Shown here in pieces: positions 1,467-64,000 of a stretch of 64,000 nucleotides of DNA. The stretch's first letter is position 1. Every line of letters starts with the position of its first letter. The translations under genes and the position numbers were made by a program. Under the pieces are notes generated by a model. That model did no database searches, was not told the DNA's origin, and was given only the letters and a program-made list of their open reading frames with translations. Source of the stretch: Loxodes magnus (Eukaryota; Ciliophora; Karyorelictea; Loxodida; Loxodidae); the NCBI GenBank assembly GCA_946699065.1, contig CAMPDV010000023.1:682001-746000 (forward strand), in the 5' to 3' direction.

Positions 1467-3665
1467 TCAAATAAGGCTATTATGTTTGTACATATAATAT
1501 TCGCTAGGAATGTTGTAAAGGAACTTTTTTAGAACATTTTTATTTTTTAGGTGCTTTACTATTTTTTCTCCTTGATTGTTGTATAACTCTATTCAATCCT
1601 CGCATGAACTTAATTTAAGAAATAGCTTTTAAGGAGTAGGACATTCCTTGAAGACATCCATATTAATGTTAAGAGCTAATTTATTCCTAATAGCCTCAAC
1701 TATTTTTCTCTGGATTTATTTATCGTTTTTCACTTCTTTAGGTCATTAGTTTGAACTTAAATAATGGATATTAAACTAAGGAAGATATTCCTCAAAAATT
1801 TCCTTTAGGAACTTCTGAGTATGATATCAATTATGTTTCATTTTTAGCTCAGCTTTCTTCTTGCAACGGTAAAATCTTCTAAGGAAATAGCAGAGTAATA
1901 AAAATCTATAAGGTATAATAGTAATAAGAACAAGGAAAAGTGTTAGACTAGCAATGAAGATAACAGTTTTTTCATGATCTTATCAAGTTATTAAGACATG
2001 GATTTTTTCACTATAGTCTGCTAGCCTTTTAAAGAATTTTATTGCATCATTTAATCCTTTTTTAAATTACCTTCATTTTGTTCCAAGCCCTTCTTACTCT
2101 TCAGGCTTTAACTTCTTGCTAGTTCATGAGAAATCGATTATTTAATCTTGCTTTCATCTCTTTAAATTTATCACATCAGGCTAAAATCCTTTTCTCATTT
2201 AATCAGCGAAAAAGTAATGCGTGAATTTTTTATATATTCTACTAGTCTATACCTTAGGACAGTTTAGCATAATAATAAGAAGCAAAATCATAATATAAAG
2301 ATGAACTATATAATTAGCATCTCAAAATAGTACTAGCAGAACTATTATCACGAGGCATAATTTAGAAAACCTAGGATAGATAAAATTAAAGCAATAGTCT
2401 ATTTTAGCTTTGCTGCGCTTGAATAAATATATCATCCTTTTTACTCTTTTAAACTCTAGTTTAATATTGCTCATAGCTTGCCATTCTGAAACTGGATGAT
2501 AGATTTCTTTCACATCAGCTATATGCTTTGTAAAGGCAGATAAATCTCTTATTTAAAGTTCAAGAGTAGGAATTTATTCTAAATTACCAGATGAAGCAAT
2601 AAGGGGAAATTAAATAGGTTTTTACTAATATTAAGTCCAATTTAAGTATGATACCGGAATTTAAACTTCAAATAATTACTTTAGATTGTCTTTTTTGGAA
2701 AAAAACCCCTCTGATGTCTTTTGAACCAATTAGATTTTAATTTCACAAAATCTTCTAGGTACAGGAATAATAAAAGTCTAATTTCAAACGCTTAATTTAC
2801 TAAAGCTGGTTTGATGTTCTTGATTATCAAGAACTATTTTTATCTAAAATAGAGAATCTTTTTTTAAGTGTTCAGGAGGTATATTTACTACTTATATTAA
2901 CTAAATTCAAAGCAGTCCCACTGAAGACCCATCTCCACTTATCTCTTATAGTAGGTCATTTCAATCTTGAAAATTACTCAATGGAGACATTCGAAATGAA
3001 TGTTTAGCGAACAGATATTTGCATATAAAAGCTTAATTATTAAGAAAGGCTCCTTAACGTAATATGCAATTTTCTACATAAATATAATAAATGAAATCTA
3101 TTTCATTTTCAGCAGGGTATAGGTAAATTGCCCCGTTTTTTAAGACAGCATAAAATTATCTTCAAATTTACTCATGAGGCATTTTAACTTCGACTAAAGA
3201 TTTTATCATAGATTATTTATCGCTCAGTTAAGAAATGACTGATGATTTTCTAGCCGCTTAATTAATATTCAAAAATTCAGCTAACTTAATTTTGATGGTC
3301 TATCCTATATCTTCAAAAGCTTTTTGATTGGAAATTTCAATTAATTTGTTAAAATAGCTACTCAGCTTTTCTTTTCTAGTTTCCACTCTATTAATAACTC
3401 TAAACTTACTAGGAAAGTATGGAAGTTAAACTTAAGGAAGCATTCCTGCTAAACTTTGATTAAATTCATAGATATCGTTAAATTTTCTATATATAAATCT
3501 TTCTAAATTTCCTATACGTACTATGATTTCATAATCTACATTCCCATTAATCTCTTAAGTTCTGTCGATATTAAATTCTATATTTTATGAATTTAAAAAT
3601 AACTCATGACTCAATTTAGACATTTCTTTATAATAATTCCTAAGCTAATTATTTATTTAAAGCAT
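1467..3665 (-). CDS. PX-PH-C2 protein with MCTP-like C-terminal membrane domain
   Basis: Likely a membrane-anchored lipid-binding protein acting at membrane contacts or in endosomal trafficking. The N-terminal ~120 residues match a PX domain, with a basic YRKF motif and a VETRKEKL helix typical of phosphoinositide pockets. A PH-like segment follows (about residues 150-220, WRQFYAVLKNG), then a C2-like β region (about 260-400). The C-terminal part carries paired hydrophobic hairpins near residues 425-460 and 550-580. The second ends in the pattern ITWQDHEKT..IPYRFLLLCYFLRRFYR, close to the PRT_C domain that ends MCTP/ferlin-like C2 proteins. There is no intron. Twelve internal TGA codons fall at plausible Trp sites (two Trp use TGG), and the stop is TGA at 1467-1469. 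Starts at 3695 or 3623 are also possible; 3665 lies just after the upstream gene's stop. Domain order is inferred from sequence pattern only. Confidence 0.8.
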
Positions 3666-3666
3666 T

Positions 3667-4237
3667 TCAAATACTATAAGTTTACTTTAAGTCATAGTAA
3701 TAATATGTATTTATATTTTAATTCCATACTTAATTTAGCCTTCTTTTAATAAAATATTAGACAGATTCCCTATATTTTTTCTTTTTAGCTTCATGCTGTT
3801 TAGCATAACTAACTTTATCCTTCAAGCTTTTTCTCAAATAAATAGCTCTATTTAATAATTAATTATCTAGGATGTTTCCTTTTGTTCCATATGGTTTATT
3901 AAAGAAGCTGTTTACCTAAGTATAAATAGTTGAATTTAATTAATTAGATTTAAAGGATATTTATACTTTTAAATAAATATTTAATTTAATATTATGATAT
4001 TATAGTTAGAGTTTAAATCTCTTAGATCTTTATAAGAACTAACCTAACTCTAATTTATTTACACCTTCCAGAATCCTACTATTTTATTAAATAAATTAAA
4101 GTCAAATTTACTCTATATTACCTGCTTTTATCTACAGTTTTAGCAAAGGAAAATCATCTTGATTAATTGGGATCGAATTTAGATAAAGAAGAATTGCAAG
4201 GTAAATAAAGAAAGAGAAATTATATGTTTAATGACAT
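3667..4237 (-). CDS. Small uncharacterised protein, probably spliced
   Basis: I do not recognise this protein. A clearly coding-like frame runs from about 4060 to its TGA at 3667. It is Lys/Gln-rich, with a basic amphipathic C-terminal helix around RAIYLRKSLKDK and YFIKRRLNQ. The most sensible start is the ATG at 4237 in another frame, giving SRWFSFAKTVDKS (TGA read as Trp). The frames join if about 43-46 nt beginning GTAATATAGAG and ending TAG are removed near 4100. A second in-phase GT-AG segment of 51 nt near 3930 may also be an intron. It sits tightly between the methyltransferase gene and the PX gene on the same strand. The exon structure is inference; the coding character of the 3' part is the firmer point. 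Confidence 0.4.
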
Positions 4238-4338
4238 TATTGGGTAAATGACTTGCAAAGTAAAGATAAATAATTTAATTAAAATGTACTTAATAGAAAG
4301 TTTATTAGTTCTTGAATAAATTGTTAATATCTATCTCC

Positions 4339-5066
4339 TCAGTTTGCTCTATAGTTGATTTTGTTTTTTTCTTTTTAATATTTTATTATAATTCCTCACT
4401 ACGATGTTGCCATAATTATTGCTGTGTTGTACTTATTTAAAATTTTTCTCCTTCTATGGGTGATTCTTTAAAATTAGCTCAAACAGCGAATCATTAAAAC
4501 ACAATGCTTCCCTCAACTTCAACATTTATATTACGCTATTCCTAGCAATATTAGTCTACATAAACAAAATAATCGCAAAAATCTCTTTACTCTGCATTCA
4601 ATCCTTTTTCTTAATTTCCAATAATAAAAGCAGTTGATCCATTGAAGGGCATTGTATGTACTGGTTTTGCACTATTATATTTTTCAATTCCACAAACTTA
4701 AATTTAATTTTACTTGCAAAACTACTTTATTTCATCCAAGCTCTCAAAATTAAGAGTTTCTATTTTATTAAGTGTTCCATGATTTCCTCATGAGTGTAGC
4801 TTTTTTTGAGCCATTAGAATAGCATTAACTCCAAAAGCACCTGCTGATCTTATAAGAGTTCCAATATTGCTGCGTTTAGAAACATCATGAACTATTAAGT
4901 AACTTCTAATATCTTACATTAAAGCTAATTAATACTATATATTAAAATTTAAATCTAGTCTTTATTCTTTAACTCCTACTTAAAGTTATCTTAAGCCCTT
5001 AGTTTCTATTTCTTTAGTAGTATTACTAAGTTCTATTTAATATACTTATTTAAACCCTTTTAGCAT
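4339..5066 (-). CDS. SpoU/TrmH-family RNA 2'-O-methyltransferase
   Basis: Predicted AdoMet-dependent 2'-O-ribose methyltransferase of rRNA or tRNA with the SPOUT trefoil-knot fold. Motif 1 is clear (VSKRSNIGTLIRSAGAFG). Motif 2 (STAFIIGNQEKGL) contains the usual GN.E.GL loop. Motif 3 is present in degenerate form (NINVEVEGSIVF). The product is about 232 residues, close to a bare catalytic domain with a short N-terminal lead. The frame is open back to an ATG at 5066, and the conserved part begins just after a second ATG at 4919. The C-terminal frame has no nearby TGA unless a 29-nt intron (4371-4399, GTGAGG...AAAAAG) is removed. Removal brings in TGA at 4339 and makes the length divisible by three. 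Family membership is firm; the C-terminal splice is inference. Confidence 0.75.
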
Positions 5067-5210
5067 TTAGTTTCAATTGAGCAATATTTGCTATGTGGAT
5101 ATGCTCAAAAATAGTTTTTAATCTATTTAAATTTACAGAGAAATGAATAGAGATGAACTGTTGTAAATATCATTCAATTATATTTATTAAGATCATACAA
5201 GTTTTTAACC

Positions 5211-6239
5211 TCACTTAAGTTTAAATTGTCATAATTCTGACCAAGTTATTTCCTTTACAAGCTGACATTCTTTAGTAATTTTAAATAGCTGATATTTTGT
5301 TGAAATTCACAAGAATCCTTCTGAATCTCAGTTTAGAATGGGCCAAGAATTTACTTCACATGTGAATTTATAACTTGATCTCTATAAAGTTCCAATCAGA
5401 AATCCTAACATATATGAATTATTAGCTTCAACATCAAGAAGAAAAACGTGTATCGAAGCTCTGTCATCACTCGAAACTGCTAAGCACATATTATTTTATG
5501 AAAAAGCTAAACTTGATATCTTGGCATGCATAGAACCTCTTCTTAATTCTTTTTGCATTTCAATAGGTTTCAATTACTCGCATTAGTTAGATAGTTTTTT
5601 TATTTATGTTTCGCTTTATTGAGTTTAAATAAAGTTATCTAAAAGTTGATCATTTTCTTTGGTATTTTATTTTCAAATTCGAATAACAGTTCCTTTAATA
5701 CTAGCAGTTGCAATTAAATCACCTTCCTAATTAACAGTAATTTATGCAATATCTCCTTAATGAGCTTATACTATTTCAACTGTTACTTCTCCTCACCAAT
5801 TAAAATTAATTACTTGAATTTATCCTAATTTTGATCCTAAGCATACTATAACGCTACCATCTCTGTTCATTCCAATTATTCCAAGTTAATTAAGTAAAGT
5901 AGGTACAATTTCAATAACTTCCATTTTAGGAAAATGTAAGATTTGAGTTTCGTTTTCACATACAATAATTATTTTTCTCTGAACTATCTGAATATTAGAA
6001 ATTCTGCTAATAAATTATTCTTTGTATATAAATTCTTGCTCAATTCCATCTCAAATATATAAGATTTAATTCTAACTAAAAGCAATTATTTAAGTGTTAA
6101 AGTATATAGCAATAGCGTCTATTTTAAATCCACTAATACATGATACTAGCTGGCAGTTTTTTAAGTCAAGAGTTCTTAAGACACTGTTAGTATTTTGAAG
6201 AAGACTGGATTTATCCTAATTGAATGAAGTATGCTACAT
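5211..6239 (-). CDS. PROPPIN (Atg18/WIPI/WDR45 family) phosphoinositide-binding β-propeller
   Basis: A seven-bladed WD40-type propeller of about 342 residues that binds PI3P and PI(3,5)P2 and acts in autophagosome formation and endolysosomal trafficking. The diagnostic LRRG motif is present (QKELRRGS, about residue 220), as are the blade-1 start FNQDKSS, the blade with AHQGDIAQITVNQEGDLIATAS, and FSQNNMCLAVSSDDRASIHVF. The start at 6239 (MQHTSFNQD) matches the usual PROPPIN N-terminus. The frame is also open and coding-like upstream to an ATG at 6536, so a ~99-residue N-terminal extension is possible. There is no intron. TGA fills several Trp sites. Three in-frame TGAs lie at 5229, 5211 and 5193; I take the middle one as stop, but the first could terminate. 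Confidence 0.88.
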
Positions 6240-10471: not shown

Positions 10472-11902
10472 TCATACTTTTTTGCATCCTAAGCACTATT
10501 TATTTGTTTGGCAGCATGACCAGCAACTTCTTTTCAGGTTTATATCGTATTTCCATTTTCCAGGATGAATTAATTTCTCTTGCTTTTTGAAAGAACCTGA
10601 AGTTTAGTATTTTTAATCTAGGCTATATTACTAAATTTTTTCCTCTTATTCGTCTTCGTTTACTTCTTAAATCGGTTATAAGAAATTGAAATCTGTTTAG
10701 TTAGAGTAATTAACTTTATTTTATATTTCTTAAGTTTATTCCTAATATTCATCTTTAGCTTCCTCTTGAACTTAAAGAATCTCTTTAGCATTTTGCATTT
10801 CATCCCTCAACTTCAAAATTTCATTTTCGTATTATTTGAAGTTTTAAAGGATAGAAGGATCTTATTAAAACTAAGTTTAATTATTAGCTTGAATATTTTA
10901 CAGGAGTTCCTTGATACCTTCTATTTCATTTTACAAATATGATACTTATTGCTTAATCAAAGTTTATGCTTAGGTATGACTATCAAGAATTAATATTCCT
11001 TATGTTTATATTGCTTATTCTGGCTAACTTTGCTTCATCTTCTGGCTTTCTTCACTTTGTGATGATTGACTTAATAATTTCTCATCAATACTTTTGTTAA
11101 TTTATAACTGATCAATTTCAAGCTTATTAAGTCTTTAAATAATGTCAGATTTTGGTGATTTTTACAAAGCTTCTTCCTCAGACTTTTTTACTATCTCACT
11201 GATTCTAGAAGAAGTTTCTGAATTTTGTTTTTGCAGCTACTCTATATTTTACACCAAGCTAACTAAGTTTTCCTTGATGTCTCTTAAGTTTTAGTTTTCT
11301 TCGATTTAAAACTAATTAAGGTTCTAAGAATGTTCCTCTAAGCTTTGCTAAACATTGTCAAGCAGTAATTTTTATTATGCTTATTCAGCTTGTATTTCTT
11401 TAATTAAATTGTCTCATTTACTTTGATTGCTTTCCAATACAACTAATCTTTACATCAAATCCTAGAAGTTAATTTCTTAAGGCTTTGGAGCAGATTCTTC
11501 TTATACTGATCTTCTTAACTCTTATACTTCATAATTTACAGAGTTCTGCATATTTTTAATCACATCCAGCTCTTTTTCCAATGCAGACAATCGTTCTGTT
11601 GCTTACTTCATGCAATCTTCTTATAGTTCATGTCTTTAAAACTCTTACCTGACGCTATCTAGAAATATGTTTTATGGATTATCAGGCTCAATTAAGGATA
11701 GCAGTTTAGCTATAATTATTTGTTTATCTTAAGGTTATTCAATGAGGCAATTAGACTGACAAACTGAATGCTTGAGAATCTCAATGGTTTGGCATATTTT
11801 ACAAAGGTGCTGGAGACATAGCAAGCTTTACTGGAAAGGCATGTTGCTTTGTTTCTGTTAAATCAATCGTTCCCATTCTGCTTTACATTGTTAGAAATCC
11901 AT
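10472..11902 (-). CDS. Coiled-coil protein with C-terminal Cys/His (WSCC) zinc-like motif
   Basis: A 476-residue intronless protein, mostly Glu/Gln/Lys coiled coil from about residue 110 to 430. The N-terminal 100 residues hold a small Cys/His cluster (CLQHLCKICQT...HSVCQSNC). The last ~30 residues read HPGKWKYD...CWSCC...CLGCKK, a compact His/Cys module of a kind I have met at the end of many coiled-coil proteins in ciliates and other eukaryotes; it probably binds zinc. Function is unknown, and a cytoskeletal or basal-body role is only a guess. It is transcribed away from the 11971 gene across a 68-bp gap, so the two probably share a promoter. One internal TGA (SKWDN) is read as Trp, and the stop is TGA at 10472. 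Confidence 0.75.
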
Positions 11903-11970
11903 TTTTTGTTAAATCAATTGTTTTCTTTTGAAAGGCTAATTGTTTACTTTAATACTTTGTTTAATACAAA
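11903..11970. promoter_or_regulatory. 68-bp divergent intergenic gap, putative bidirectional promoter
   Basis: It separates the start codons of two divergent coiled-coil genes. Any core promoters and 5' leaders must fit here. The sequence is T/A-rich with no TATA element I can defend. Confidence 0.45.
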
Positions 11971-16914: not shown

Positions 16915-18213
16915 ATGCAGAATTTGCTCAACTATGAAGATCCTTTCTATGGACAAATTTAAATTCCTTATAAAATTGCCTAGGTAATTCATACTCCAGC
17001 CTTCTAAAGGCTACATAATATTCTTTAATTAGGTGCATAGAATTTAATTTATCCAAATATAGTTCATACTAGATACTAGCATTGTATTGGAACATGATAC
17101 TAATCTAAAATTTTATTAGATCATCTTAAAGGTTAGAAAAATATTAGTATGCTAGAGCAAAACCAAGAAATTAACGTTTAAATAGCAGCATTAGTCCATG
17201 ACATTGGACATGGACCACATAGCCATTTATGGTAGAGTTTCGTTGAAGCAAAATATCCAGAATGGTAGCATGAAAGTGCTTCAATAGAAATATTCAAGTA
17301 CTTAATTTAAAACTTAAGTGATAATTTTTTTGAGGAAGTTGATACTGAACAAATTTGTAACTTAATAACTGGAAATAAAAACTATGGATGGATTTCAGAT
17401 ATTGTTAACAATACTAGAAATTAATTAGATGTAGATAAATTTGACTACTTAATAAGAGATGCAGGAACAGCTAGCATAAAGCATGACTTCAACTATAACC
17501 TACTAATTAAAAATGCTGTTATTTATGAAGACTAGCAAATAGCTTTTTGGAATAGAAATGAATCTTTCTAATAAGTTTATAATGTATTTAATACTAGATA
17601 TAATATGTATAAAAACCTATATTGAAATCCATTAAAGCTTTCATATGATATCATGCTACTTGAGGTTCTGGATTTAGCTGACCCTTATTTAAAATTAAGA
17701 TAAAAATCAGCAGAGCTTTTAAGTACTGACTCAATTAATAGTCGAATGGAATACTTAGAGTTGAGTGACAATATTTTTGACAAAATTTACATGCTTTCAT
17801 AATCTAAGAATTAACTTAAATAATGCTAATAGCTTCTTTAAAAAATTAGGAATAAATAACCCTATAAATGCTTAGGACAAGTAAATATGAGAAGCAAGGC
17901 TATTATGAACTTGATAAATGAGCAAGAGTTTATTAAAATCTCTAGAAATAAGCAGTTAAATGAAAATGACTTCAAAATTTTGAAACTTTGCAACTATGCT
18001 AATAAAGGAAAGCAGAATCCGTTTTAAGATGTTCTCTTTATAAATGAAGAAACTAATTAAGAAATAAGCAAAACAGAATTTGATTCTTAGATAAAACAAT
18101 TTACAAAAAATACTGATACGTTTGACATATGCGTTTTTCTTGCTAACGAAGAAAAACAAAGTCAAGCTGAAAATGCATTTGAAAGTTTCGTAAAAGCAGT
18201 CAATAATTTCTGA
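16915..18213 (+). CDS. SAMHD1-type HD-domain dNTP triphosphohydrolase
   Basis: A 432-residue intronless protein matching the HD core of SAMHD1: it begins DPFYGQI, then TPAFQRLHNILQLG. The metal-binding set is intact: His in RYQHCIGT, His-Asp in ALVHDIGHGPHSH, and the distal Asp in LDVDKFDYLIRDAG. These enzymes hydrolyse dNTPs to nucleosides and triphosphate and set nucleotide pools. No SAM domain precedes the HD core, and the start ATG at 16915 falls right at the domain, so this is the catalytic part alone. Two TGAs are Trp (GTWYQS, NLYWNPLK), the second in a region conserved in the family. The stop is TGA at 18211. The allosteric nucleotide sites cannot be judged by eye. Confidence 0.92.
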
Positions 18214-22715: not shown

Positions 22716-22751
22716 GATAATGTTTAAATATTAGTCTACTTATCCAGGGAA

Positions 22752-25087: not shown

Positions 25088-25984
25088 TCATCTTTGGCTA
25101 TAATATCCATTCATCTAAAAAGGGTAATAGTTGCAATAAGGATGGTAAGGAGGTGGCAAATAGGGATTCTAAAATTCTTAGTACTACATGTTGATTTAAT
25201 TACAAGTTTGAAATTACTAGTCATTATGATAAAATTACTGATTAACCTTCTAAAATCCTCCTACCTGATTTTCAGGATAAACCTCAACTTGGTTAGAAAT
25301 ATTCTTCAATTCAGTTTCTTAAGCGCATTAAAAGTTTTGTTCCTATTATACGAGATTTTAAGGAATCTCAAAAATCTATTTTTCCTATTCTTTAGGTTTT
25401 TCAATTTCTGCAGATTCAGTTTTTACAATGGCCTAGCTTTTATCGGCATTTCTTCTCTTTTTCATAAAATTAGTCAAGGTTTTCTTCAATCGCTTATCTT
25501 TGCACTAGGAGTATTAAGTGGCAAAATCAATTTTTTTACTAATATTCAGGACTTTTTAAAATGTTGCTTTCGCTTCTTTGTCGCTCTTTAGGAAAAGGTT
25601 GACTAATTGGTAAAACCTATTCTTTACTTAATGATTATTCCTTCCTTGAAGCTTTCTACTAATCTCGCTCCAGTCTTTGTTCAAGATAAATTTCTTTCTA
25701 AGTATGATCTCATCTTCATTCTGGGTCCAATTTCCTTTCTTTAGATGTGGATTCAAGTGATTATTGAATCGTTCTCTAATCTTATGACAATTACGTACTT
25801 TTCTATTGCTATGCAGTATTTCGTTAATAGTGTTGGCGATTTTTTGCCAAGGCAACTTTTATTTTACACTATAGGACTTTTCGTTGAAAAACTGCAAAAT
25901 AATTTTATCTTCTTCACTGCTCCAAGTAGCATCTTGATAAAGTTGCAAGTATTTAGGCTCATTACTTATAGGTTTATTTGACAT
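25088..25984 (-). CDS. R2R3-type Myb/SANT DNA-binding protein
   Basis: A 298-residue intronless nuclear DNA-binding protein. Two consecutive Myb repeats occupy residues ~14-135. R2 runs from ATWSSEEDKIIL through LPWQKIANTIN, with a longer than usual loop, to KIRERFNNHL. R3 runs from KGNWTQNEDEIIL through DWSEISRKLQGRNNHQVKNRFYQL, which has the usual recognition-helix pattern NxxQVKNRF. Regularly spaced Trp are all TGG here. A basic patch (FMKKRRNADKS) follows, then a Gln/Asn-rich tail ending in a Pro/Tyr-rich stretch (PYLPPPYHPYCNYYPF), probably an interaction or activation region. The stop is TGA at 25088. This is a probable transcription factor of the c-Myb/CDC5-like class; target genes are unknown. 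Confidence 0.9.
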
Positions 25985-27398
25985 CTTGAAAATTGTAACT
26001 AGTACTTAATTTCTAACTTAAATTTAATTTGTTTTAAACAATTCACTCTAAACTATTTATTTCATTTACGATGCGTTTATTATCACTATCTCCTTCCAGT
26101 CTCCATATTTAATACTTCCTCTGTACTTCTTTTACTAGATTTTATTCATCGATGTAACTTATTAAGAAGAAGTTTAATTAATAGACTAAGCTAAAAGAAA
26201 CTAAATTAGATTACATCAATAGTGAGAAATAAAGCCTATTCTGGTAATAAGTATACAATAATATTTATTTATAAGAACATTTATATTTTAAAAGTATAAT
26301 CAAGTAATTAAGGCTCTAAATTAACCATTATTTAAATTTTAAACAGTTAACTTCTCCTATTTTTATTCTTATGAGTAGAATTTACCCTACAATATAGAAC
26401 ACTTTTTAATTAGTGCTGTAGATAAATTGTATGAAACGGTAGTTTTCATTAAATAAAAGAAAATTCTAATAAATTTTAAAGAGCTTGATATTCTTTATTA
26501 TTCAAAGCTATTGCAAGTAAAATTTTGAGTCAATTCAATGTATTAGTTTATCTAAATTGAACGATTACTCAAATTATATCATTAATAGCTAAGGAATTAA
26601 ATTATTACTTCTTTTGCTAGAAGATTTGATTCTGTTTAAAAATATCAAAGCAGATGTTATCTTTAGAAGTATTTCTTAATAAAATGCCATCAAATAATCG
26701 TTTATTTTTTATTGAATATATAAGGTTACTTGAAAGTAAAGTATCTAGACTTATTTTATAATAAAATTTTTCTTTTGCTGTTAAGTTTAGTCACTAGCAT
26801 TGTTTTAGAGCTTTAAAACTAAGCAAAAAGCTTTCAGGGATGAAATTAGCAAATATTTAAAATTATAGTAAAATTGTAATTTGATAAAAGACTAAAGTGA
26901 CATTATTAAGATATTATTTTGAAAAGAGAAATTTGCTTAGTAAAAATGATAAATCACATTTGCTTTATTAAGTTCCAAATAAAAACTAACTGTTTACTCA
27001 TTTAGTATGCTACTATTTGATGCTCATGATTATAATCATTAGTTATGTTGATTTCATAATTCTGATTTTAACATGTAAGTTAATTAACTTCAATTAAACG
27101 CTTAGTAATGCAAATTAAGGTTTTAACTCGCCTGGGGTTAACTTTGAGAGTTTATTTAATAATAATATATCTTAGTAATTTAAATCTTAAAATCAAAGCT
27201 TTTAATTAATGTACTTTAAGCATACCATTTTAATTAATCCTTTAGTAGCTCTGACTTTCTTAAGAAATCTTATAAATTAAAAGTTATATTTGATTTAATA
27301 GCATTGATTATAACTATAATTTAGCTTGCTTTTATGATTAAATACATTTTATTTGAAAATGTTAAAGATAAAATAAAGGTAAGAATCTTTTCTTTCAA
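25985..27398. other. AT-rich spacer
   Basis: About 1.4 kb with no supported gene, RNA or repeat. Confidence 0.6.
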
Positions 27399-29626: not shown

Positions 29627-32039
29627 ATATGATATATTAAATAAATTTATTATCTATTTTAATTTACAAATCACTTAGATGCTGCTTTATCATTTATAGA
29701 TTATATTAATAAAATTAGACATAATAACTTATTAAGTAAAGCAGATGTATTAATAAATTTAGAATTAGCTTTAAAAATATTTGGAAATGCTTAGTTTAAT
29801 AATTAAGGGTTAAGGTAAATGATAAACTTTTTACTATAATAGAATTATTAAGCAATCATATTAGCTTTTAGGCATTCAAAAGCAATTAATTACTTTAGTT
29901 AAAGCAAATCTTCTAAATCTTGAATTTAAGATTAAAAAATTAATAAAAGCTATAAAATCTATTATTTAAAGGCAATATTCATAAATCTACTTATAAAGCT
30001 TTCAAATAAATAATAGTTTTAGGTATCTATTTTTATTAAATTAAGCTACTTATTTAGTAAATAATCCTTAATAATATAAATTTAAATTATTTAAGTTTCA
30101 GTTTTTCTAATTAAAAGAATAATTTGCTTAAAGATAATTTAAAATAGTTTAATTGGTTAAGAAGAGAATATTGTAGTCAAAATCATTTAATAAATATAAT
30201 TAGCTTATTATTAAGATAGAAAGACTTAACAAATAAGCTTGGCTTTAATTTCTATTTAAGACAGTTCTATCATTTATAATAATATGCATATGGAAATCAG
30301 ATAGAATAGCTATGATAGCATCTGTTTAGATAATATTTTCGTTTATCTAAATAAGATAGCATTCTTTCAAATATATTCTTAATGTTAGAATAGATAAATA
30401 GCAATTCGCAAATAATAGCCTAATTATATAATCTAAACTTTTCAGTTTAATTAAATATAAGTATGCATATCTTTTAGGATTAAGTAGATATGTTTTATCT
30501 TTAAAATGAAAATTAATAATAGCAATGAAATAATACTTATGAGAGTATCTAGTATAATACTTCTTATTTAGAATTTCATAGTAAGTTTATCTATATTTTA
30601 AATTTAATATTTCTTTAAAGGAATGCTAAATATCTACGTTTATTAGATGCATATATTTAATATTTTTATGAAAGATACATGAAATCATAAAATTTGCTTC
30701 TATATAAATATCTATCTTTAGCTGACTAACCAATAAACATTATAAAGGATAAGTCATATGAGATATATCTTTTACATTTGAGGGACATTTTAATGCTCAA
30801 ATGCCAAATAGCTAAATATAATAATTATTAATTTAATTTAAGCTGATATTTTTATTATAGTTTAAGATATTTAGCAAGAAAAATAAAAGCAAAGCATATT
30901 TTATATTCAATTAAACTGTTAATATCAACTCTTAAAATTATAACTTTAATATCTATCTAATTATTTATCAAATCTATGTGCTAAGAAATTCAAATAGAGA
31001 AACTTTTTCCAATTTACCTAAATCCTTTCATGAGATTTTAATTTATGAATACAAAAAATTATTTGGATTCTTTAATTTATAATAATTTTAGCTTCAGCAA
31101 TGTAAAGCTAAATATTATAGTAAAGTTTGTATTTTTAATGAGAGTGTTTTTTGATTTTTAATAACTCTTATTTATGGAAATAATAATTTAAAGTACTTAA
31201 ATGAAGAAAGCTTGCTTTTTTTATTTTAACATTTATTTCTCCTTTATTTGTAATAGATAAAAACAATACTAAATCAATAATTTTAACATTCTAAAAATTA
31301 AAATATTTAAAATCTATTTGTCTATTGCTAAAAAGCTAATTTATAATAAGTAACTAAATACGAAATTAATAGAGGAAAGCATTACATAAAGCTATTAACT
31401 TTTATTATTTATTTTTTACGAAATGTTACCTAAGATATTTGATAAAATAACTAGTTTTAAAACTTAGTTCATTTGCTTGCTTTCAATGTATTAAATAGCT
31501 GAATGTGAAGATAAATTTAAATAAATAAAAAATTAATAAAAATATAGTATAATTAGGAAATAAAATCCCTTATTGTATATGGCATGTCCCATATAAATAA
31601 TAGCATTCATTTATTTAGTCAGATAACTTATTAATTTATGCTAAAATAATAATCTCTTTCATTTAGTCACAAAAAGTAAGTTAAATAAAGCATAAATACT
31701 TAAATTATATGCTTTAAAGAGGTATAGAATGATAATTATTTATACTAACTTGTTCTCTTACAATTTTGTAATACCTTTTAATATACCTCCATACTTTCAT
31801 CTATTATTTTGTCAATTCAACCAGGTTTTTTAAATTTGATTTGAGCAATTAGCAAGCAAAGGTAAATGATTTAAACACAACATCTTATGTAAATAACAAG
31901 ATAAATAGCTTAAGTTATTTGAGTTTAATAATAAGCTAAATAAATAGAATAAAGAGGTCTTTGAATTAAGTTTAATGAAGGATTTAAATTAGATAAACTA
32001 AATTGCGTTATTTTAAAATAAACTTACCTATTTATAAAT
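29627..32039. other. Long AT-rich spacer
   Basis: About 2.4 kb, strongly AT-rich. No supported reading frame, structured RNA or mobile element is seen before the channel gene. Confidence 0.6.
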
Positions 32040-38000: not shown

Positions 38001-41000
38001 CTTGTTAACAGTGGTGCTTTATTAAAGTAATCAAATACTACAAAACCAGTTAATGACTAGCAATATTAAAATAAAATACAAAAATCTTAGATGTTGTAAG
38101 ATTTTTTGGTGGAATGTAATTTTGTAAAGAATTGAATTCAATATATTTCAAGTGCGAATCTTAATTGGAGTGTTATGAGTTTTAAAGAAAAGAAAATCAT
38201 CTATCATAAGTTTAAATTGCTTGCTCTCCTAACTTCCTATGGTAATCTCAAGGTACAGCAAGAAATAAGGCAATATTATGCAGAAACATATCAAAAAAGA
38301 CTGAATGGATAGTTTTTCTTATTAAAAATTAGAAATTTGTTATAGCAACAAAGAAACTTAATGAAGTAGTAATCATTGAAATAAAGTTATCATCTTTAAA
38401 ATAAAGCAAAGAGTGATGATATATAGATAAGTCTGTAAAATACTATTTTTAACATTCTTTGCTTCCTTAAAAATTTTTGTGAAGTTGGATATTCATTAGA
38501 ATCCAAAATATGGCTTCATGATCAAACAGAATGTTCTTCAGATATTGATATTATATCGGAAGTATGTCTTTTAGCTAAAACTTACAGTAACTGTTTCTTA
38601 AACTATTTTGAAAGACTCGAAGCAGAAGATTTTTCAAAATAAATAAATTTAGTGCATGAAACAGATAATAGCAAAACTAAATATATAATTGACTGACAAA
38701 AAATGAAGTTTTAAATGCCATCAAATGAATTTTTAGAAACATATCGCCTTATTTGAAGAACACTTACGGAATTTGTTCAAGGTCCTTGCATTTCGAACTA
38801 AGAATTATGCTCTAAAAATTAGGTGATTGGAAATATAAGTTAAATTCTTAGTATTCTAGGAGCTACTTAGCTTAAGACTGTAATCAATATAGACTCTACT
38901 TAAATAAAAAAATTGGCAGATCTTTCCATTTAAACCTATTTTACCAAGAGAAAATTATCTTATACCCAAGAATAAAGGTATTAGGAAATAGAAAGTATTA
39001 AGCAATGATAGAAAGAGAATTCTAATATTCATAAAAAACAAATTTATGAATATAATGCTAACTCAAAGTAAGGTCTTGATATCCTAGCTAAAAAAAGGAA
39101 TGAACTTGGATTATTTGAGTTTTTGCATATTAAAGAAGATAGTACTCTTGCGAACGAAGGAGAGTGCATTATATAAGACGAGGAAAAGTTTTTTTAGCTT
39201 GAGCTCGCTTTGATGGAATTTCTTATTTCCCTAACTGAAGGTTTTACAGATGAAAAATGACTAAAAATGATGGAATATTTTAAAGGGATTATAGACTTCG
39301 ATATTCTTATTACAAACTTGATATAGCATTACTAATCAGTAGCCAAAATAGAAGATAATCTAAGCATACAACAGGATGAGCAGTAGTAAAAAAGACTTGG
39401 AATTCATTATGAATTGATCTATTTTTATTATTCGTTTCTTATGGTATATAAATATAGTATAGAGTAATCTCAGGATAACGATGGAAATTAATTGATTTAA
39501 AAAATACTATAATGTGACCAGTATTGCATTAAAAACATTAATAGACACTTAAACGATCTTGTATGCAAAGTCGAAGTAGTTGATTAAGGAGATTAGCTAA
39601 GACATTTGTATTTTCCAAAGCCAGAAAAAGTGAAACAATTTTGGAAAGTTGATTATGTCAAAGAAATGTTTAAGCAAAAACTTGATTAAATTCCTAGAGA
39701 TAATCCAGAAGTCAAAAAACAGAAGTTCGATGAATTGATTGATGAAATAAATGACCTTCTAGATCATCTAGTTTAGTTAAAAACTTGGGGCAATATAGGA
39801 TTCAAAAAGTTCATTTACAAATACATTATAGTGCCTAAAAGAGCTATTTACTATGTTATGCTTATCTTAAGTTTTACTTTAAATTGCATAATACTCTCAA
39901 TCTATATAACAAAGGTAGATGAAAACGGAGAAGTACATGTAATTATGCAAAATAAAGCAACAATGCTAGCAATTATCCAAGTTTAAAGTTTGCTCATGTT
40001 TATCCTTTCAGTAGCATTTTTATTTAATCATATTGCAATCATAACTTAGAAAAAATTAGCTTTAATTTGGAAAGGTGAATCCTAAAATTAAAAATAAGTC
40101 AGTTATTTAAATCAAATACTAAAATATTTCTAAACTATTTTTAGAGATATAGAACTATGCTATAAAATCTTTTTAATATTAATTTGCTTTATAGGAATTT
40201 TTAAGCATTCAGTCTTATGCTTTACTTTAATCCTATTGGTGTGGGAGAATGCTATAATGAGAAGTGTGATTCAATCAGTAATTTAGTCATGGGATAAAGT
40301 ATTGATGACTATTGTCTTATTTTTAATTTTTGTTTATTGGTTTTCGGTCTGCGGCTATTTTTCAGAAAGTATAAGAGGTTAATATGCGTTTGAAGATAAA
40401 ATAGACGTTAGTTCTTTATGGATGTTCTTTAGAGTTCATGTCGACTATGGATTTACTAATCCACCGATCTGGGAATCCTAAGGATCAATTCCATATCCTG
40501 AATCTCTAATGAACTTTCTATATATAATCCTAATAAACTTGATTACTACTGCTATTATTTCTGGTATTATCATTGATAATTTCGCTGAAATGAGATCATA
40601 GAAGGAAATTGTTGATAATGATAGCAAGAACTTTTGCTTCATTTGTAATATCAGCAACGAAGAGTTTGAAAAAAACTAGATTAATTTTAAGAAGCATATA
40701 TGTAATGAGCATGCCTTAGAATAATACTGCTGGCTTAAAATTTATATTAAAAACAAAGAAAAAACTGAACTTAATGGTATAGAAAGCTTTATTAGAGATA
40801 AAATAGAGAAAGAAGATTTTACTTATATTCCCTTACTCAAATCTTTATCTATATAAACTAAAATAAAGATAGATGCTTCCAATGATTAGCAAATACTAAC
40901 TTTACTATTAAGCATAGCTAACGATCAAATTTATTTAAAAGAATAAGTAGACAATATAATTTCGTAATTTTAGGATTAAAACTAAAGTTAATCGTTCACA

Positions 41001-41252
41001 AGATTAAAAACTTCTATTAATCGTCTTTAAACCAAAACATTTGTTAGCTAAAATAATAAAAATCCATCTCTAGCAAAAGCCTTAATGATATTAGAAGAAA
41101 ATTAACTCTAGGATACGTAATTTTTGTAATGTTCTTTATAAACTAGTTAAAATTTTTTAGAGGAAGGATTTTCTATTAAAAGTGGATCTTAATAGCTTAA
41201 TATGGAGAAGATAGTGGAAAGCTTAGAAGTGAGTGACTAGGAATAGAATTGA
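32040..41252 (+). CDS. IP3-receptor/ryanodine-receptor-family Ca2+ release channel
   Basis: A single intronless frame of 3,070 residues. The N-terminus (MSQIHQLNVFHGDFV) and residues ~70-370 fit the IP3R suppressor and MIR β-trefoils (PIKFGSIVKFKHASSGNYL). A RIH/armadillo-type region follows (LRRFCQPGSFGDSQLQRLICELL near residue 705), then long α-solenoid sequence. Membrane helices occupy about residues 2,600-2,860. The last helix, IISGIIIDNFAEMRSQK, matches the IP3R S6 pattern G.IID.FA.LR. After it comes the zinc-linker CFIC...HICNEH and a helical tail, as in animal IP3Rs. The pore loop reads HVDYGFTNPPIW where animal channels have the GGGVGD filter, so selectivity may differ. Ciliates use such channels in alveolar sacs, ER and the contractile vacuole. 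Many TGAs are internal Trp; stop TGA at 41250. Confidence 0.9.
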
Positions 41253-44319: not shown

Positions 44320-45333
44320 ATGCAATAGAACTTTGTAGATGGAAAGCTACTTGCCTAGAAACTAAAACATAAAATAAAAGAAGAACTAGATGGCTTAGTA
44401 TAGAGGTACTAACTAAAGTATCCTACTATTGGATATGTTTAGATTGGAAATAGCAATGAATCTTTAAAATACAAAAAGAATAAAGAGATAGTAGCTAGCT
44501 AATTAGGCATTAGCTTTAAGAATGTTACATTAGATTAGGATGTAATTTAATAAGAAATCGCCTAAAAGATTAATGATCTAGACAAAGATCCGCTCGTTAA
44601 TGGAATTTTTGTTACATTTCCTTTACCTTCTTAGCTTATTCATGGAAATGTTATTTAATGCATTTCTCCAATTAAGGATATAGATGGCTTGCATCCCCTA
44701 AATTAAGGGATGCTCCATTAAAAGCATTTCTAGCCATTTTTAATCCCAGCTACAGTATCTGCCTGCATTAAAATTCTATAGAATATATTTACTGAAGATG
44801 AAATAGATTGCAATTAAGATTTTCCACCTATTCCACAACTGAAAGGAAAGCACGCTGTTATTGTAGGCAGAAGTACAATTGTAGGTTCTCCTTTAGTGGG
44901 AGTGCTTACACATTATGATGCTACAGTAACGTTTTGTCATAGACATACTAAGGATTTGCAATATTTTACAAAGCAAGCAGATATTTTGCTAACAGCAACA
45001 GGAATTCCAAAAATAATTAAAAGTGATATGATTAAGGAAGGATGCATTGTAGTTGATATTGGAATCAAGCAAATCACCAATTAAAATAATTAAGTACTCA
45101 TATTAGGTGACGTTGATTAATAGGCTTATAATATTTGCGGAAAAGTTACTCCAGTTCCAGGAGGTGTAGGACCTTTAACGGTAGCTTGCTTAATGAATAA
45201 CGTAGTAAAGGCTTGGAAAATGTAAAACTCCAGCAAATTTTAGAAAATTCAACGTCTAGAGAACTTATAATTCAAGGAAGAATAGGATGTAAAGGATGAG
45301 GGAAGAGATAGTGTTAATTAAGCACACTATTGA
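44320..45333 (+). CDS. folD: Methylenetetrahydrofolate dehydrogenase/cyclohydrolase (FolD type)
   Basis: A 337-residue intronless enzyme that interconverts 5,10-methylene-THF and 10-formyl-THF with NAD(P). The catalytic Tyr-x3-Lys is in KYKKNKEI (about residues 55-60). The second signature [10 protein letters not shown] and the cofactor-binding loop [14 protein letters not shown] are intact, and so is the terminal [12 protein letters not shown] motif. In the folate-site segment GIFVTFPLP, a Thr replaces the Gln found in most homologues (GxLVQLPLP). A ~15-residue insertion precedes GRSTIVG. After the core (ending near VKAWKM) there is a ~40-residue charged tail to TGA 45331. The N-terminus starts directly at the core, so no mitochondrial presequence is evident; probably cytosolic. 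It lacks the formyl-THF synthetase domain of animal C1-THF synthase. Confidence 0.93.
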
Positions 45334-53183: not shown

Positions 53184-54330
53184 TCATTTATAAAAAGATT
53201 TTGCGATACTTATGTCTTGCGGATTACATGATCCTTCATGCTTCTCTTTATTACATTTACTACATTAACTTTATTAATGTTCCTAACATAAAGGTATATT
53301 TCCACTAATGTGACCTGGTATTGGTTATTAACACTTTTAACAGGATATCATAGTAAATTGTTGAAAACTATTAACTTAAGGAACAAAAGTTTATTACTAT
53401 TGTCAATTATACTAAGGTTGATTTTATTAACTATAAGTGAATTAAGTCTAAGAAAGAGGGATTTAAGGATTTTAAGTTGATTGTTAAATGCTGGAATAAG
53501 TATTTGTTAATTTTGATACGTTTGAATCTTAAAAATTAAAGCTAGTGCTCTATAATGAATTAACTTCAATAGAAGCTTTTGGATTATTTACCTACAAACT
53601 TTATATCTATTAATTAAAAAATTAATTATTCATTGGAGTAATATTAAGTTAATTAGAGTATTTTTAGTATTGCATTTCATCAATAATGCCTTGCAATTAA
53701 TCCGCTCTAAGTTAAGCTTATTTTCACTGTTCTTAAGCATAATTAAATTTTTAAAATAAATCATTGTTTTAAACCTAAATTTCTTGTTTTGATTAATTCA
53801 AATACTCTAATTTCGAAGTGAGGTCTTATTACTTTAATTAAAGTTTTTAATATTAATCCTATAAGTCTTTAATATATTATTAAGCTTGAATATTTTATTG
53901 TTATTTATAATTTTAAATTTTTTCATTATCTTATTATAGTTTTTAGATTTCTTATGTCTTTTAGTAAGATAAATTTTGATACTCTTATTGCAGTTTTTAG
54001 ATTTCTTATGTCTTTTAGTAAGAAAAATTATGATACTCTTATTATAAATTTAAGATTTCTTATTATTTTAACTAAGATAAATTTTCTTTTTCTTGTTTTA
54101 AGTTGGTAAAGTTATTTAAATGTTGTTAATTTTTTTGTTTTTAAGATTCAAGTTCTTATCTTAAATTTGTAATAGTCTAAGATAATTCATTAATTTTTTA
54201 TTCAGATTAAGTTTAGATATTTTTTATTTGATCTTACTGAGATTTTACAGTTTAATCTAATTTTAAGTTTAATTGGTTCATTTAATCCTTTTCTTTTTAA
54301 AGCATTTTTTACAAATTTTCCAAATTTTCT
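53184..54330 (-). repeat. Duplicated segment, copy 2 (intact)
   Basis: Partner of 49723-50945. It encodes the distal coiled coil, the Ser/Asn linker and the C-terminal zinc module in an open frame. Confidence 0.85.
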
Positions 54331-57059
54331 ATTTTTATTATTTATTAAAGAATTAAAGTATTCAAATTTTCGTCTTTTTATTCAAGCTATTTCTTTCTTT
54401 TTTTGCATTCTTTTTTCAAGTTTACGTATTATTCTTAAATTTTGTTTACAACTTCCACAGATTTTAATTCTTCATTCAAGTTTTATTGTTAATCTCCTTA
54501 AGCTTATTATAATTCCATGTTATCTATCAAGTTTTATTCTTATTGATTTTGAGACAAATAATTATAAAATTGATTATAATTTTACTATTACTATAGCTGC
54601 TGATTATTTAGTTACTCTATTTATTAGTAGTTATTTTTAATATATTCTTACAAATCTTTAATTTTTTAAATATAGCTTTAAAGTTACTATTGATTATTGC
54701 CTTATCTTTAATTAGTGTTTGATTAAAAAATGTTGTAAAGTTCTTACAATTCTTAAGTTATCTTATTAAAATCTTATAATTGATTTTATAAGTTAGCAAC
54801 TTGCCTTTCATATTATTAAACTTCTATAATTTTTTAGTCTCTTTCGTTTTACAATTAACTAATTATATTTTGCAAATCATTACATTCATTTTAAGCTTCC
54901 AATATTTTTTTTTCCTTATCATTTAAATCATTTTATCTCTTAAATTAAACACTTGTAATATTTTTAATTAATTCATCTTTGTTTTTATTTTCATTTTCTA
55001 ATTTTCTAATTTATACTTCTAATTAATTCTTTCATTTTGTATAACTTTGCTCCTTCTCTTAAGTTTAAATCACCAAAATTTACCACTATTTCTAGAAATT
55101 CCTTTAAATTTAACTAGTATTTTGTTAAAGTTATTTATTATCTCTAGATAATTGATTTACTTCTTATTCATAGCTTTAAATTTATTTTAAGTACATTTAG
55201 GTTTTACTTTCTAATTCCTTGTTAGCATACTATAAATGATTTGCTTCGTTTTCCTTTACAGCTAATTAATTTGACAGTTGACTAATTTTTTGTTCAACTT
55301 CTTAGTTGCTTTATTCTATCTTAAATTATAAAATAGTATTTTATTTATTGATTTCCTCGATTTAGTTATTTTTATTAGAAAATTAAAGATGATATTAATT
55401 TAGACGGTTATTGCTTGCCGATAAATTTTCATACTAGTTTTAACTCTAAGCTTAAGCTTTTTAGAAACCCTCTATTTAATTCTAAATTTATAAAATACTT
55501 TATTCTAATTTTTATTTCTGATTTATATACTATCTAATTTCTTCTTATTATTGATCATTCTATTTCGTATATTAATCTTTTACTTCTTTAACAGTTTATT
55601 CTATCATCTAGTTCTCTATTTTTTAATTTTATATTTCATTTTCAGATTAAGATATTTTTTCCTTCAATTCTATTAATGATTTTTAACACTCAACATATTT
55701 AGTATTTTTCTCTTTGAATTCTTACTCTAACTTTTAGATATAGCCAGCTTTGCTTTAAATTATTTACTTTTATACTACGATTTTATATTCTAGGTCCTTT
55801 ATTTATCTTTACTGTAGCTTAGAAGTTTAATCTTTTTAATATATTTATTCTATTAATATCTTTTTTTCCTAAGAATAATTATTATTTTATTCCTGCAATT
55901 ATGATTCTAATTTTTAGATATAATCAGATTTGCTTTAAATTATTTACTTTTATTCTACGATCTCACCTTCTAGGTCCTTTATTTATCTTTACTGTAGCTT
56001 AGAAGTTTAATCTTTTTAATATATTTATTCTATTAATATCTTTTTTTCCTAAGAATAATTATTATTTTATTCCTGCAATTATGATTCTAATTTTTAGATA
56101 TAATCAGATTTGCTTTAAATTATTTACTTTTATTCTACGATCTCACCTTCTAGGTCCTTTATTTATCTTTACTGTAGCTTAGAAGTTTAATCTTTTTAAT
56201 ATATTTATTCTATTAATATCTTCTTTTCCTAAGAATAATTATTATTTTATTCCTGCAATTATGATTCTAATTTTTAGATATAATCAGATTTGCTTTAAAT
56301 TATTTACTTTTATTCTACGATCTCACCTTCTAGGTCCTTTATTTATCTTTACTGTTGATTTTTTTGATTCTATAAATTATTAATTTCAGTTTACTATTAA
56401 GAGATCTAATCGATTGCCTTTTATATATCTTATTCTTTTTATTAGTTTTTTTAAGTAATATCCTAGTTATTTCGCTGTAACGTTTTTATTTATTCTTATT
56501 ATTCACTTATAGAAAAGTTTAATTAAATAATAGTTTCTTATTAGTTCTTTATTTCTTTTTTTTATTCATCTATTTTCTGCAGTTATTCTCCAATTGCTCC
56601 ATTTTGTGATTCATATGCTTAAATTAACTTTTATAATTTTTCAATATGTTCTTACTGTTTGCATAAATTTTCGCTAAAAGATTCTTCACTTTCTTTTCAT
56701 AAGTTGTATTATAATAATTATGCTTATCATTTTTTATAGCTACTTTCATCTACAGGTTGATGATATTAATTTTATTAGTAATTTTAAATATCTTAAATCC
56801 ATTGGATATTATTTGCTTGAGCAATAAATTGATTATTTTTTTCATTTTAGTACTTTTCATCAAAAATCGTAAAATGATCCAAAGAGCAGTATAATTAAAA
56901 TTTTTTCTCAGGTTAAAAATGTTTGCTAATAAATTAGCTTTTCCATAACGGACTCAAGTGTTAATCGCAAAAAGAATGACCACATTTCAACTTGAATTCC
57001 TCATTCGCTTTCTTCTTACAATTTTCAAAAGAGCATTGCAAATATGTATTGCCTTGCAT
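53184..57059 (-). CDS. Long coiled-coil protein with N- and C-terminal zinc modules
   Basis: A 1,291-residue intronless protein, intact in frame. The N-terminal zinc module has Cys9, Cys14, Cys26, His28, Cys31 and His34 (KCGHSFCDQH), followed by a second YCSLDH patch, RING/B-box-like. Residues ~150-1,190 are Gln/Lys/Glu coiled coil, including three and a half near-identical 60-residue repeats (IKDLEGEIVEQKQIIQSK). A Ser/Asn/Gln linker follows. The last ~50 residues form a second zinc module: SCQKCQQPIPGH, LCQEH, QCSKCNKEKHEGSC. Paired Cys/His modules at both ends of a long rod suggest a scaffold or E3-type adaptor, but this is inference. TGA is Trp at several sites (EQWKQAQ, YNWQQQ); stop TGA at 53184. 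The 3' part is duplicated in the neighbouring gene. Confidence 0.78.
55715..56355 (-). repeat. 180-bp tandem repeat, about 3.5 copies
   Basis: Units at 55741-55920, 55921-56100 and 56101-56280, plus a 75-bp partial to 56355. The central units are almost identical (one T/C difference noted near 56223). They encode a 60-residue coiled-coil unit in frame within the zinc/coiled-coil gene. The near identity suggests recent expansion or homogenisation. Confidence 0.93.
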
Positions 57060-61900: not shown

Positions 61901-62690
61901 TGGATAAAAAATTAAGACAAAAAGAAATGATGGAGAACAAAAACAATAAAAGAAAAGCGATAAGTCATAGCATTATTCAATAAAATAAATAGATTGATCA
62001 AAAAATACATTCAATGCAAAATTTTATGACTAATGAAAGTGACTGAAGCAAGCTTTCAAAGGTTCAAAATGATTTCTTAAACTTTTATACTCAACATTAT
62101 GAAAGAATAAAAGAGGATAATTACAGTAAAATAGTAAAGACTGAAAATTCTGAGAATAATGAATTTAACTAATAGCATCCAGAGTTGAAAAGAATCTTAG
62201 AGCTATATAATAAGTTTAATAACAAAAGACAAAAAAAGACAGTTACTTTTTCTAATTTAAATGACTAAAATAAAAGCTAGATTTAATATTTTCCATGTTT
62301 TCCTACAAACAAATCAAATGACTATTCATTTGAAGAGAGAAACTCAAATAATCAAAGCCTAAATAAAACTTTTATAGATGAAGTGGTATAAAATTATGAA
62401 AATCAACGTGTTAAAGCAAAAATATCCAAACAGAAATGACAAGAATAATAAAAAATAAAATAAAGATAGCAAAACGAAAAATATTAGAAGTTTGTATTGG
62501 ACATTCAGTTTAAGAGATTTTAATAATTCAACAAAAATTCAAATTAAAGTGGTTGCAAAACACCATAGTACTTAAAGGAAAAATCAATAACTTAAAGCTT
62601 CACAAGCACTTAATCAATAAAAGACAGTAAGCTTCAAAAGAGCAAAAAAATGATAAAATAGAAAAGCCTTTATTATTCACAAATAGTTGA
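58974..62690 (+). CDS. Large Lys/Asn/Gln-rich protein of unknown function
   Basis: About 1,230 residues; I do not recognise the family. A 19-nt intron (59483-59501, GTAAAT...TATAG) joins KEAIENL to IFQRPSRAEIKSEKK; both sides are clearly coding. The best-structured part is residues ~200-800, for example GYDLITFWIETS, YKYLKHLQVELNREID, KTPRIEVKYYKKIYSAN, LDINFFLCKQKRITKLVCDF and EGQYTQSIVDIFNYL. A VPICAICYKIYKDYEKRK segment near residue 865 has a Cys-x2-Cys pair. The rest is low-complexity and probably disordered. About ten internal TGAs fit Trp. The 3' end is unsure: without a further small intron near 62,630 (14-16 nt GTAAGC...) there is no nearby TGA; with it, TGA at 62651 or 62688 terminates. 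Confidence 0.65.
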
Positions 62691-63542
62691 TATATAATTT
62701 TAATGTATTACTTATAATAACAATCATAAACTAAACATTGCTCAATATATAAATAATTATATTTTATTTAATTTTTATGGATAATTCTAATTTATTACAA
62801 ATCAAGAATAAGTGATATTTAGCAAGATATTATAAATAACTTCACTAAATGTTCATCACTATTAAAAGAAGAGATACAGAATGATCATTTTTAATTAAAA
62901 TAAGCAAAAATAATAATTATCTTAAATTAATTTATCAGAGATCTAGCTATTGAGGCTTATTTAAAGATTTTAATGACTAGGTAATTAATTATTTTAAACT
63001 ATTGGAAACTTAATTTTTAATAAACTTACAATCTATATAAAGAAATGTTGCAAGTTTAAAATACCTTAATATTAAGAAAGGTTTTATAGCTTACTAAAAT
63101 TAAAAAAATTATTTTAAAATTCATTTTTAACTTCTACTTGAATAGTTCTCGATTTTCTATTATTCAAATTCTGCATTAAAATATCTAATTTTAAAACCAT
63201 TCAGACATTTAATTTATTACAATGTCCTTTATAAGTTCATTGCTAAAGCTCTATTAAAAGGTTCTCGTTTAATCTTAATTTAGTGTGAAATATTGGTAAA
63301 TGAAAAATAAGAAAGAATACTGAATTGAGTATAAAATTAAAAAATATTAATAAAATAATATTTGATTAATTAATAAAAGCTTAAATATAACTGTAAGACA
63401 CTTTCTATTTAGAGATTAAAATAAACATTATGTAAATTATTAGTCTTATAAGAGAAATGCAAGGTATATTTTAAAATCTTTGTTTAATGCTTAGTTAATT
63501 TTATATATTATGTATTGATTAGAGAATTCGAGTGATTAAAAA
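62691..63542. other. AT-rich spacer
   Basis: No supported feature. The frame of the upstream gene remains open for some distance but loses coding character. Confidence 0.5.
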
Positions 63543-64000
63543 ATGAAGGAATAACCACTTTTGAAAAAATAAAATTTTTTAGAAACTGGGGAATCAGGAG
63601 AAATTGAAGTTGCAATAAAAGACACAGATTAGAGCTTATCTATGCATATTTATTTACTTTTGAATAAGCCAGAATCTTCTCTTTCAGCCAAAATAGTATG
63701 CAACTTTATTATATTTTCGATAATGCTATCAATTTTGCTTATAATAATAGAATCAGTGAAGGAAATAAGAGACTCAGTACATAAGAATATTTGAATGAGC
63801 TTAGATTTTTTTCTCACTTCATTATTCACAGTAGAATATTTTATGAGACTCTTCGTATGCAAAAAGGGAGGAGAAACTGCTTTCTAATTTCTAAAAAATT
63901 TTATTAACATATGCGATCTGCTTACAATCCTTCCTTTTTATATAGAGCTTTTTTTCGAGTGAGAAACTAAGGATACTAGAGCTTTTAGAATTTTAAGGCT
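63543..64000 (+). CDS. Voltage-gated K+ channel (Kv type), 5' part, cut by window end
   Basis: The first 152 residues of a six-helix channel subunit. S1 is near residues 50-72 (NFIIFSIMLSILLIIIESV). S2 carries the classic acidic motif (LDFFLTSLFTVEYFMRLFVC), and S3 the conserved Asn/Asp (FINICDLLTILPFYIELFF). The window ends at the start of S4 (TRAFRILR), where gating arginines begin. The pattern is closest to Shaker-type and related Kv channels. There is no T1 domain, because only ~45 residues precede S1. Such channels shape membrane potential and ciliary behaviour in ciliates. Two TGAs are Trp (KNIWMS, FFEWET). The pore and filter lie outside the window, so K+ selectivity is inferred. Confidence 0.85.

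Follow-up and report, generated by a model that had tools for sequence, protein, structure and literature searches.

The window analysed here is a 64-kb stretch of genomic DNA of the karyorelict ciliate Loxodes magnus (G000:C23:682001-746000), and the subject is the use of UAA, UAG and UGA as sense and stop codons in its genes and in the genome searched along with it (705,730,643 bases in 7,843 contigs). A first-pass annotation of the window had described a karyorelict code in which UAR (UAA and UAG) is glutamine (Gln), internal UGA is tryptophan (Trp) and UGA is the only gene end, and had equated it with NCBI code 27. As judged from sequence, UGA and UAA are very probably both sense codons inside genes and both stop codons near mRNA ends, while UAG is Gln only.

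Genes of the window

Under the standard code, just four stop-to-stop frames of at least 100 amino acids exist across the 64 kb. An unsupervised codon hidden Markov model (HMM), trained on the window without start or stop information, delineates 26 coding segments, the long ones being full of in-frame TAA, TAG and TGA. Eighteen of these (8,284 codons), which remain when eight short or repetitive segments are omitted, contain 487 TAA, 202 TAG, 199 CAA, 60 CAG, 79 TGA and 44 TGG. Pfam domains that span in-frame TAA, TAG or TGA include PX, WD40/PROPPIN, SpoU, HD, Myb, IP3R/RyR (MIR, Ins145 and RIH_assoc), FolD and RING, and a ubiquitin-like (UBL) match falls below the cut-off. That the proteins are intact only when TAA and TAG are read through, as had been annotated, is borne out by the FolD, HD, Myb, IP3R and WD40/SpoU domains, all recognised across these codons. 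The principal genes are as follows.

4302..6218, minus strand: WD40/PROPPIN-like and SpoU methylase gene, candidate UAA-terminated gene; coding segment with 41 TAA, 9 TAG and 12 TGA
10472..11950, minus strand: coiled-coil-like protein without a Pfam match; composition boundary at TGA 10472-10474
17131..18213, plus strand: SAMHD1-like HD hydrolase (the part found by the HMM); one sense TGA at 17623-17625, TGA stop at 18211-18213
25088..26155, minus strand: Myb-domain protein; stop TGA 25088-25090
31932..41252, plus strand: IP3 receptor-type channel gene in several segments; TGA stop at 41250-41252
44326..45333, plus strand: FolD (methylene-tetrahydrofolate dehydrogenase/cyclohydrolase); 15 TAA and 11 TAG in the segment
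46665..48167, minus strand: ubiquitin-like protein, Pfam match below the curated cut-off; four sense TGA, stop TGA 46665-46667
53184..57029, minus strand: long, internally repetitive coiled-coil-like protein; composition boundary at TGA 53184-53186

By eye, the last of these genes contains internal tandem repeats and shares a near-identical block with a coiled-coil-like gene at 50278-51692 on the same strand.

Beginning with uniform probabilities, the HMM learned TGA as the commonest gene end (0.39) and ATG as the commonest start (0.26). In a comparison of single end codons by log-likelihood (lnL), TGA was the best of the 64 codons (-2.1 lnL relative to the uniform reference, as against -20.8 for TAA and -22.2 for TAG), and none of the 64 exceeded that reference; this test is unable to settle the status of TAA because TAA is frequent both within and outside coding sequence. 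The HD, Myb, UBL and IP3R genes have TGA where the coding composition drops, as annotated, and two TAG stand among the last four codons of the IP3R gene. The TGA end annotated for FolD is ambiguous because TAA 45319-45321 stands four codons ahead of TGA 45331-45333, either of which is possible as the end. In the WD40-SpoU gene, the coding composition ends at AAC TAA TAA (the two TAA at 4305-4307 and 4302-4304), and the next in-frame TGA lies 157 codons further on.

To the meaning of internal TGA the window contributes little. Its proteins were aligned to PDB entries with X placed at every canonical stop. In WIPI alignments of the WD40 gene, TGA 6051-6053 stands opposite Trp, one other TGA opposite Phe and another opposite Thr. 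The motif NLYWNPLK of the HD hydrolase, put forward as containing a conserved Trp, has its TGA (17623-17625) opposite Asn or Gln in SAMHD1-like structures, and the motif IRWGER of a supposed PAP2 protein lies in a frame that has no Pfam match, so neither is supported as a conserved Trp site. The window alone is therefore a weak test of Trp, since few of its TGA codons sit in conserved columns.

Sense codons and gene ends across the genome

Strong support for UGA as Trp comes from the Rab family across the genome. The invariant Rab motif W-D-T-A-G-Q-E was searched for as TGN GAY ACN GCN GGN NAR GAR, with N at the third base of the Trp codon and the first base of the Gln codon. This pattern occurs at 144 places in the genome, and the reversed control at none. 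Among the first 100 listed of the 144 places, the Trp codon is TGA in 64 and TGG in 36, never TGC or TGT, in keeping with the annotated meaning of internal TGA in general; the Gln codon is TAA in 59, TAG in 23, CAA in 15 and CAG in three, never AAR or GAR.

Rab proteins end in CC, CCX, CXC or similar prenylation motifs, by which a gene end can be anchored. For the first 60 of the 100 listed places (40 listed and 44 unlisted places lie outside this sample), the 3' portions were translated in three frames and ends were picked by eye and then located by script, with additional upstream sequence taken for six loci. One Ran-like locus (L107) was scored from the acidic terminus with which Ran ends. 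Two loci were left out as frameshifted (L101 and L139), five because no end occurs within the stretch (L127, L128, L145, L155 and L160) and seven as ambiguous (L106, L114, L124, L129, L141, L151 and L157). The 46 unambiguous ends comprise 38 TGA, eight TAA and no TAG, and the share of TAA is thus 8/46 (95% interval 8-31%). Three of the eight TAA ends lay at the edge of a fetched piece and were scored on joined pieces. Among other genes, ten matches to a C-terminal pattern of histone H4 were read; nine are H4, all with TGA directly after ...YGFGG, and the tenth is not H4. Both copies of the gene for release factor eRF1 (L070 and L071) also end at TGA.

UAA-ended Rab loci: L111, L118, L119, L125, L133, L134, L136 and L143

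In all eight of these genes, TAA stands 0-2 codons past a CC or CXC motif. The next in-frame TGA follows after 36 to 79 codons in six of them, and none occurs within the 54 and 73 codons available in the other two. Coding log-odds summed over the 35 codons past the terminal TAA range from 0.1 to -8.0, as compared with sums after 49 internal TAA that average +5.2 and are never lower than -1.1; six of the eight genes score below this minimum. In six, a single frame stays open between the G3 motif and the prenylation motif with its TAA; together these six contain 20 sense TAA, each at least 24 codons ahead of the terminal one. L134 requires a frame change early in the stretch, and L119 requires a candidate GT-AG intron of 17 nucleotides (nt) close to the gene end and, further upstream, another change of frame. 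For L. magnus, passages of PMC11441545 give an intron mode of 17 nt, which this candidate intron fits, and a median 3' untranslated region (UTR) of 41 nt. All eight loci have a Pfam Ras match far above the cut-off, and L118 matches Rab structures, Rab-10 along its entire length. Foreign DNA is a poor explanation for these loci, because they sit on large contigs (1.58-2.80 Mb) and themselves use TAA or TGA as sense.

Outside the Rab family, the gene for Pelota/Dom34 (L069) seems to end with ...NPEAFMI TAA, the next TGA being at codon 170. It and the WD40-SpoU gene of the window apparently agree with UAA ends and contradict the annotated claim of TGA as the only gene end, although their C-termini are less sharply defined than those of Rab and an unseen intron is possible there. 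L069 was also considered as eRF1 and rejected.

Ahead of the stop codon, TGA and TAA are avoided and TAG is not. Counted over the final 15 codons of each of the 46 genes (626 in all), there are three TAA, 23 TAG, 16 CAA, six CAG and no TGA or TGG. In an upstream reference of 17 loci (2,047 codons, introns left in, with the ambiguous L106 and L114 included), there are 69 TAA, 26 TAG, 36 CAA, six CAG, 23 TGA and 14 TGG. TAA thus makes up 3/48 of the Gln codons near the end as against 69/137 upstream (gene bootstrap 0-13%; Fisher p ~1e-8, which overstates the evidence because Rab genes are paralogues). TAG is enriched there (23/626 vs 26/2,047) and accounts for 23 of the 48 near-end Gln codons. 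Avoidance of UAA but not of UAG is expected if UAA near the end means stop and UAG never does. The pattern is the same as that in L. magnus transcripts, where, according to passages of PMC11441545, coding UGA and UAA but not UAG are depleted over a stretch of about 20 codons ahead of the stop.

Trp tRNA genes and eRF1

A pattern for tRNA-Trp(CCA) matches 138 places in the genome, as against 38 for the reversed control. In these tRNA-Trp(CCA) genes, positions 27 and 43 are unpaired, leaving an anticodon stem of 4 bp. Two tandem arrays (L045-L068, L089 and L090) hold most of the 100 places listed.

G000:C67:482323-491201: tRNA-Trp(CCA) tandem array, 48 of the 100 listed places; unit about 187 bp
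G000:C148:155464-166967: tRNA-Trp(CCA) tandem array, 42 of the 100 listed places; unit mostly 241 bp

The 27-43 combination is A-C in the copies read from the first array and T-C in the four read from the second. At G000:C110:470077-470148 there is a single, divergent tRNA-Trp(CCA) gene whose anticodon stem has 5 bp. The 4-bp-stem tRNA-Trp(CCA) of Loxodes is already in print, as cited in passages of PMC13092985. A pattern for a Trp tRNA with the anticodon UCA, restricted to one tRNA geometry, gave three genome matches, none of which is called as a tRNA.

Among the tRNAs of other specificities, tRNA-Lys(UUU) genes occur on G000:C78, C103 and C158 (e.g. L026-L030) as tandem repeats with a unit length of roughly 1,753 and 527 bp, paired in many places with tRNA-Ala(UGC). 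A pattern with a Gln(UAR) anticodon matches 12 times on G000:C274 and three times on C388, mostly about 12-31 kb apart and on alternating strands.

As compared with human eRF1, L070 has AHGRAQNIKS for EFGTASNIKS and FFLCENTF for LYLCDNKF. In both copies the residue directly before NIKS, in the stop-recognition region, is encoded by TAA; in L070 it is Gln. No simple rule was found for eRF1 and stop selectivity by Swart 2016 (PMC4967479, in the passages available).

The code and its relation to known systems

In the proposed scheme, UGA would be decoded as Trp and UAA as Gln within the coding region, and either would terminate translation in the vicinity of the mRNA 3' end, UGA as the main terminator (about five in six scored Rab ends) and UAA as a minor one (about one in six). 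The outcome would be set by competition between tRNAs and an eRF1 that recognises UGA and UAA but not UAG and prevails only near the transcript end; such a transcript-end switch has been published for Condylostoma. The code would probably lie between tables 27 and 28, with one 3'-proximity switch shared by UGA and UAA and with UAG given over entirely to Gln. Its release factor would have to discriminate between UAA and UAG and still read UGA, and about one gene in six would end at UAA and be mis-extended by gene prediction with UGA only.

The closest alternative is strict table 27, in which UGA is the sole stop and the UAA-ended genes are pseudogenes, genes with C-terminal extensions or genes whose introns lead to a UGA. 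It is favoured by the ends at TGA (38/46 in Rab and 9/9 in H4), and two Rab copies (L101 and L139) do look frameshifted. It is nevertheless improbable, since TAA follows the motif by 0-2 codons in all eight genes, the coding composition is lost downstream in most, six run in a single open frame from G3 to the prenylation motif (upstream short introns or frame changes have to be assumed for L119 and L134), and avoidance ahead of stops affects UAA but not UAG. A code of the Condylostoma type (NCBI table 28), with all three codons as sense and stop, would share the double role of UAA, and one Rab locus (L106) reads CCK TAG TGA; with no TAG among the 46 unambiguous ends, an enrichment of TAG in the last 15 codons and two TAG in the last four codons of IP3R, this is very unlikely. 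Ordinary ciliate table 6, in which UAR is Gln and UGA only stop, would account for UGA as the most frequent gene end, but it is refuted by the Rab tally, with TGA at the invariant Trp in 64 of the 100 listed copies, besides 79 in-frame TGA in 18 segments of the window, and can hardly be entertained.

Several points weigh against UAA as a second stop. UGA is called "the only stop codon" of L. magnus in a passage of PMC11441545, and none of the nine H4 genes read ends in UAA. In seven of the 60 Rab loci, TGA is preceded at a distance of 0-1 codon by TAA or TAG, which is compatible with either reading, and another seven are unscorable. In 24 of the 38 loci with TGA ends, only the motif, within a stretch of about 230 nt, served to assign the frame. 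L111 (0.1) and L119 (-1.1) show the smallest drop in score after TAA and fall inside the range of the internal-TAA control. Rab genes are paralogous, L136 and L143 even having the same ending, and counts and p values are therefore not independent. The missing TGA near gene ends is weaker evidence than the missing TAA, because TGG is absent there too. Patterns for tRNA-Gln(UUA/CUA) with two spacings (one pattern judged on 100 listed of 438 places, another on the letters of five of 36) and BLAST with a Tetrahymena query gave nothing readable as a Gln tRNA; the matches on C274 and C388 could be the missing Gln tRNAs within large repeats.

A code in which UGA and UAA, but not UAG, have two meanings keeps most of the first-pass annotation. 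UAR as Gln, internal UGA as Trp and UGA as a gene end all stand, and together with the 17-nt candidate intron they agree with its assignment to a karyorelict such as Loxodes. UGA as the sole stop does not stand (8/46 Rab ends are TAA), and equality with NCBI code 27 is too strict, because genes clearly ending at TAA, which the annotation had named as speaking against it, make up these same eight of 46 ends.

The core of the finding is already published, since PMC11441545, in the passages available, states table 27 (UGA as the sole stop and also Trp) and the depletion before stops for L. magnus; for karyorelicts, passages of PMC6935857 give UGA as the stop and UAR as Gln. No report of UAA-ended L. 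magnus genes is contained in the passages available of PMC11441545, PMC12005148, PMC6935857 and PMC11687900. New here are the anchored count of gene ends in genomic DNA and the contrast between TAA and TAG, which refine a known code and are not a new kind of code. An article on karyorelict codes by Seah (2022, Peer Community Journal) reportedly allows for UAA as a possible stop in a small fraction of karyorelict transcripts.

The gene predictor used for the published L. magnus gene models treats UGA as the stop (PMC11441545, passages). If about one-sixth of genes end at UAA, many annotated C-termini may be too long. The published depletion of UAA ahead of stops, for which section 9 of PMC11441545 offers no explanation, would likewise follow from a stop at UAA. 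A code with double meanings for UAA and UGA but not for UAG would provide a natural setting in which to test how eRF1 distinguishes UAA from UAG, and whether competition with two different tRNAs is controlled by a single positional switch.

Compared with table 27 as known from Parduczia and Loxodes, the present code is alike in that UAA and UAG are Gln, UGA is Trp inside genes and stop at their ends, and sense UGA is absent just before stops; it differs in that UAA here ends eight of the 46 scored genes, UGA being the sole stop of table 27 as described for L. magnus. In Condylostoma magnum, stops likewise depend on context and codons of double meaning are depleted before the true stop, but eRF1 there is inferred to recognise all three stops (Swart 2016; PMC4967479, passages), whereas here no UAG end was found and UAG is not avoided near gene ends. 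The 4-bp-stem tRNA-Trp(CCA) as a reader of UGA, for which Loxodes is already listed in passages of PMC13092985, is found here too; here it is encoded in long tandem arrays, of which those passages make no mention. Blastocrithidia shares this tRNA, according to the same passages, and also the use of UAA as both sense and stop and of UGA as Trp; it differs in that UAR is glutamate there and UAA is the only termination signal given at the start of the abstract (PMC12153298).

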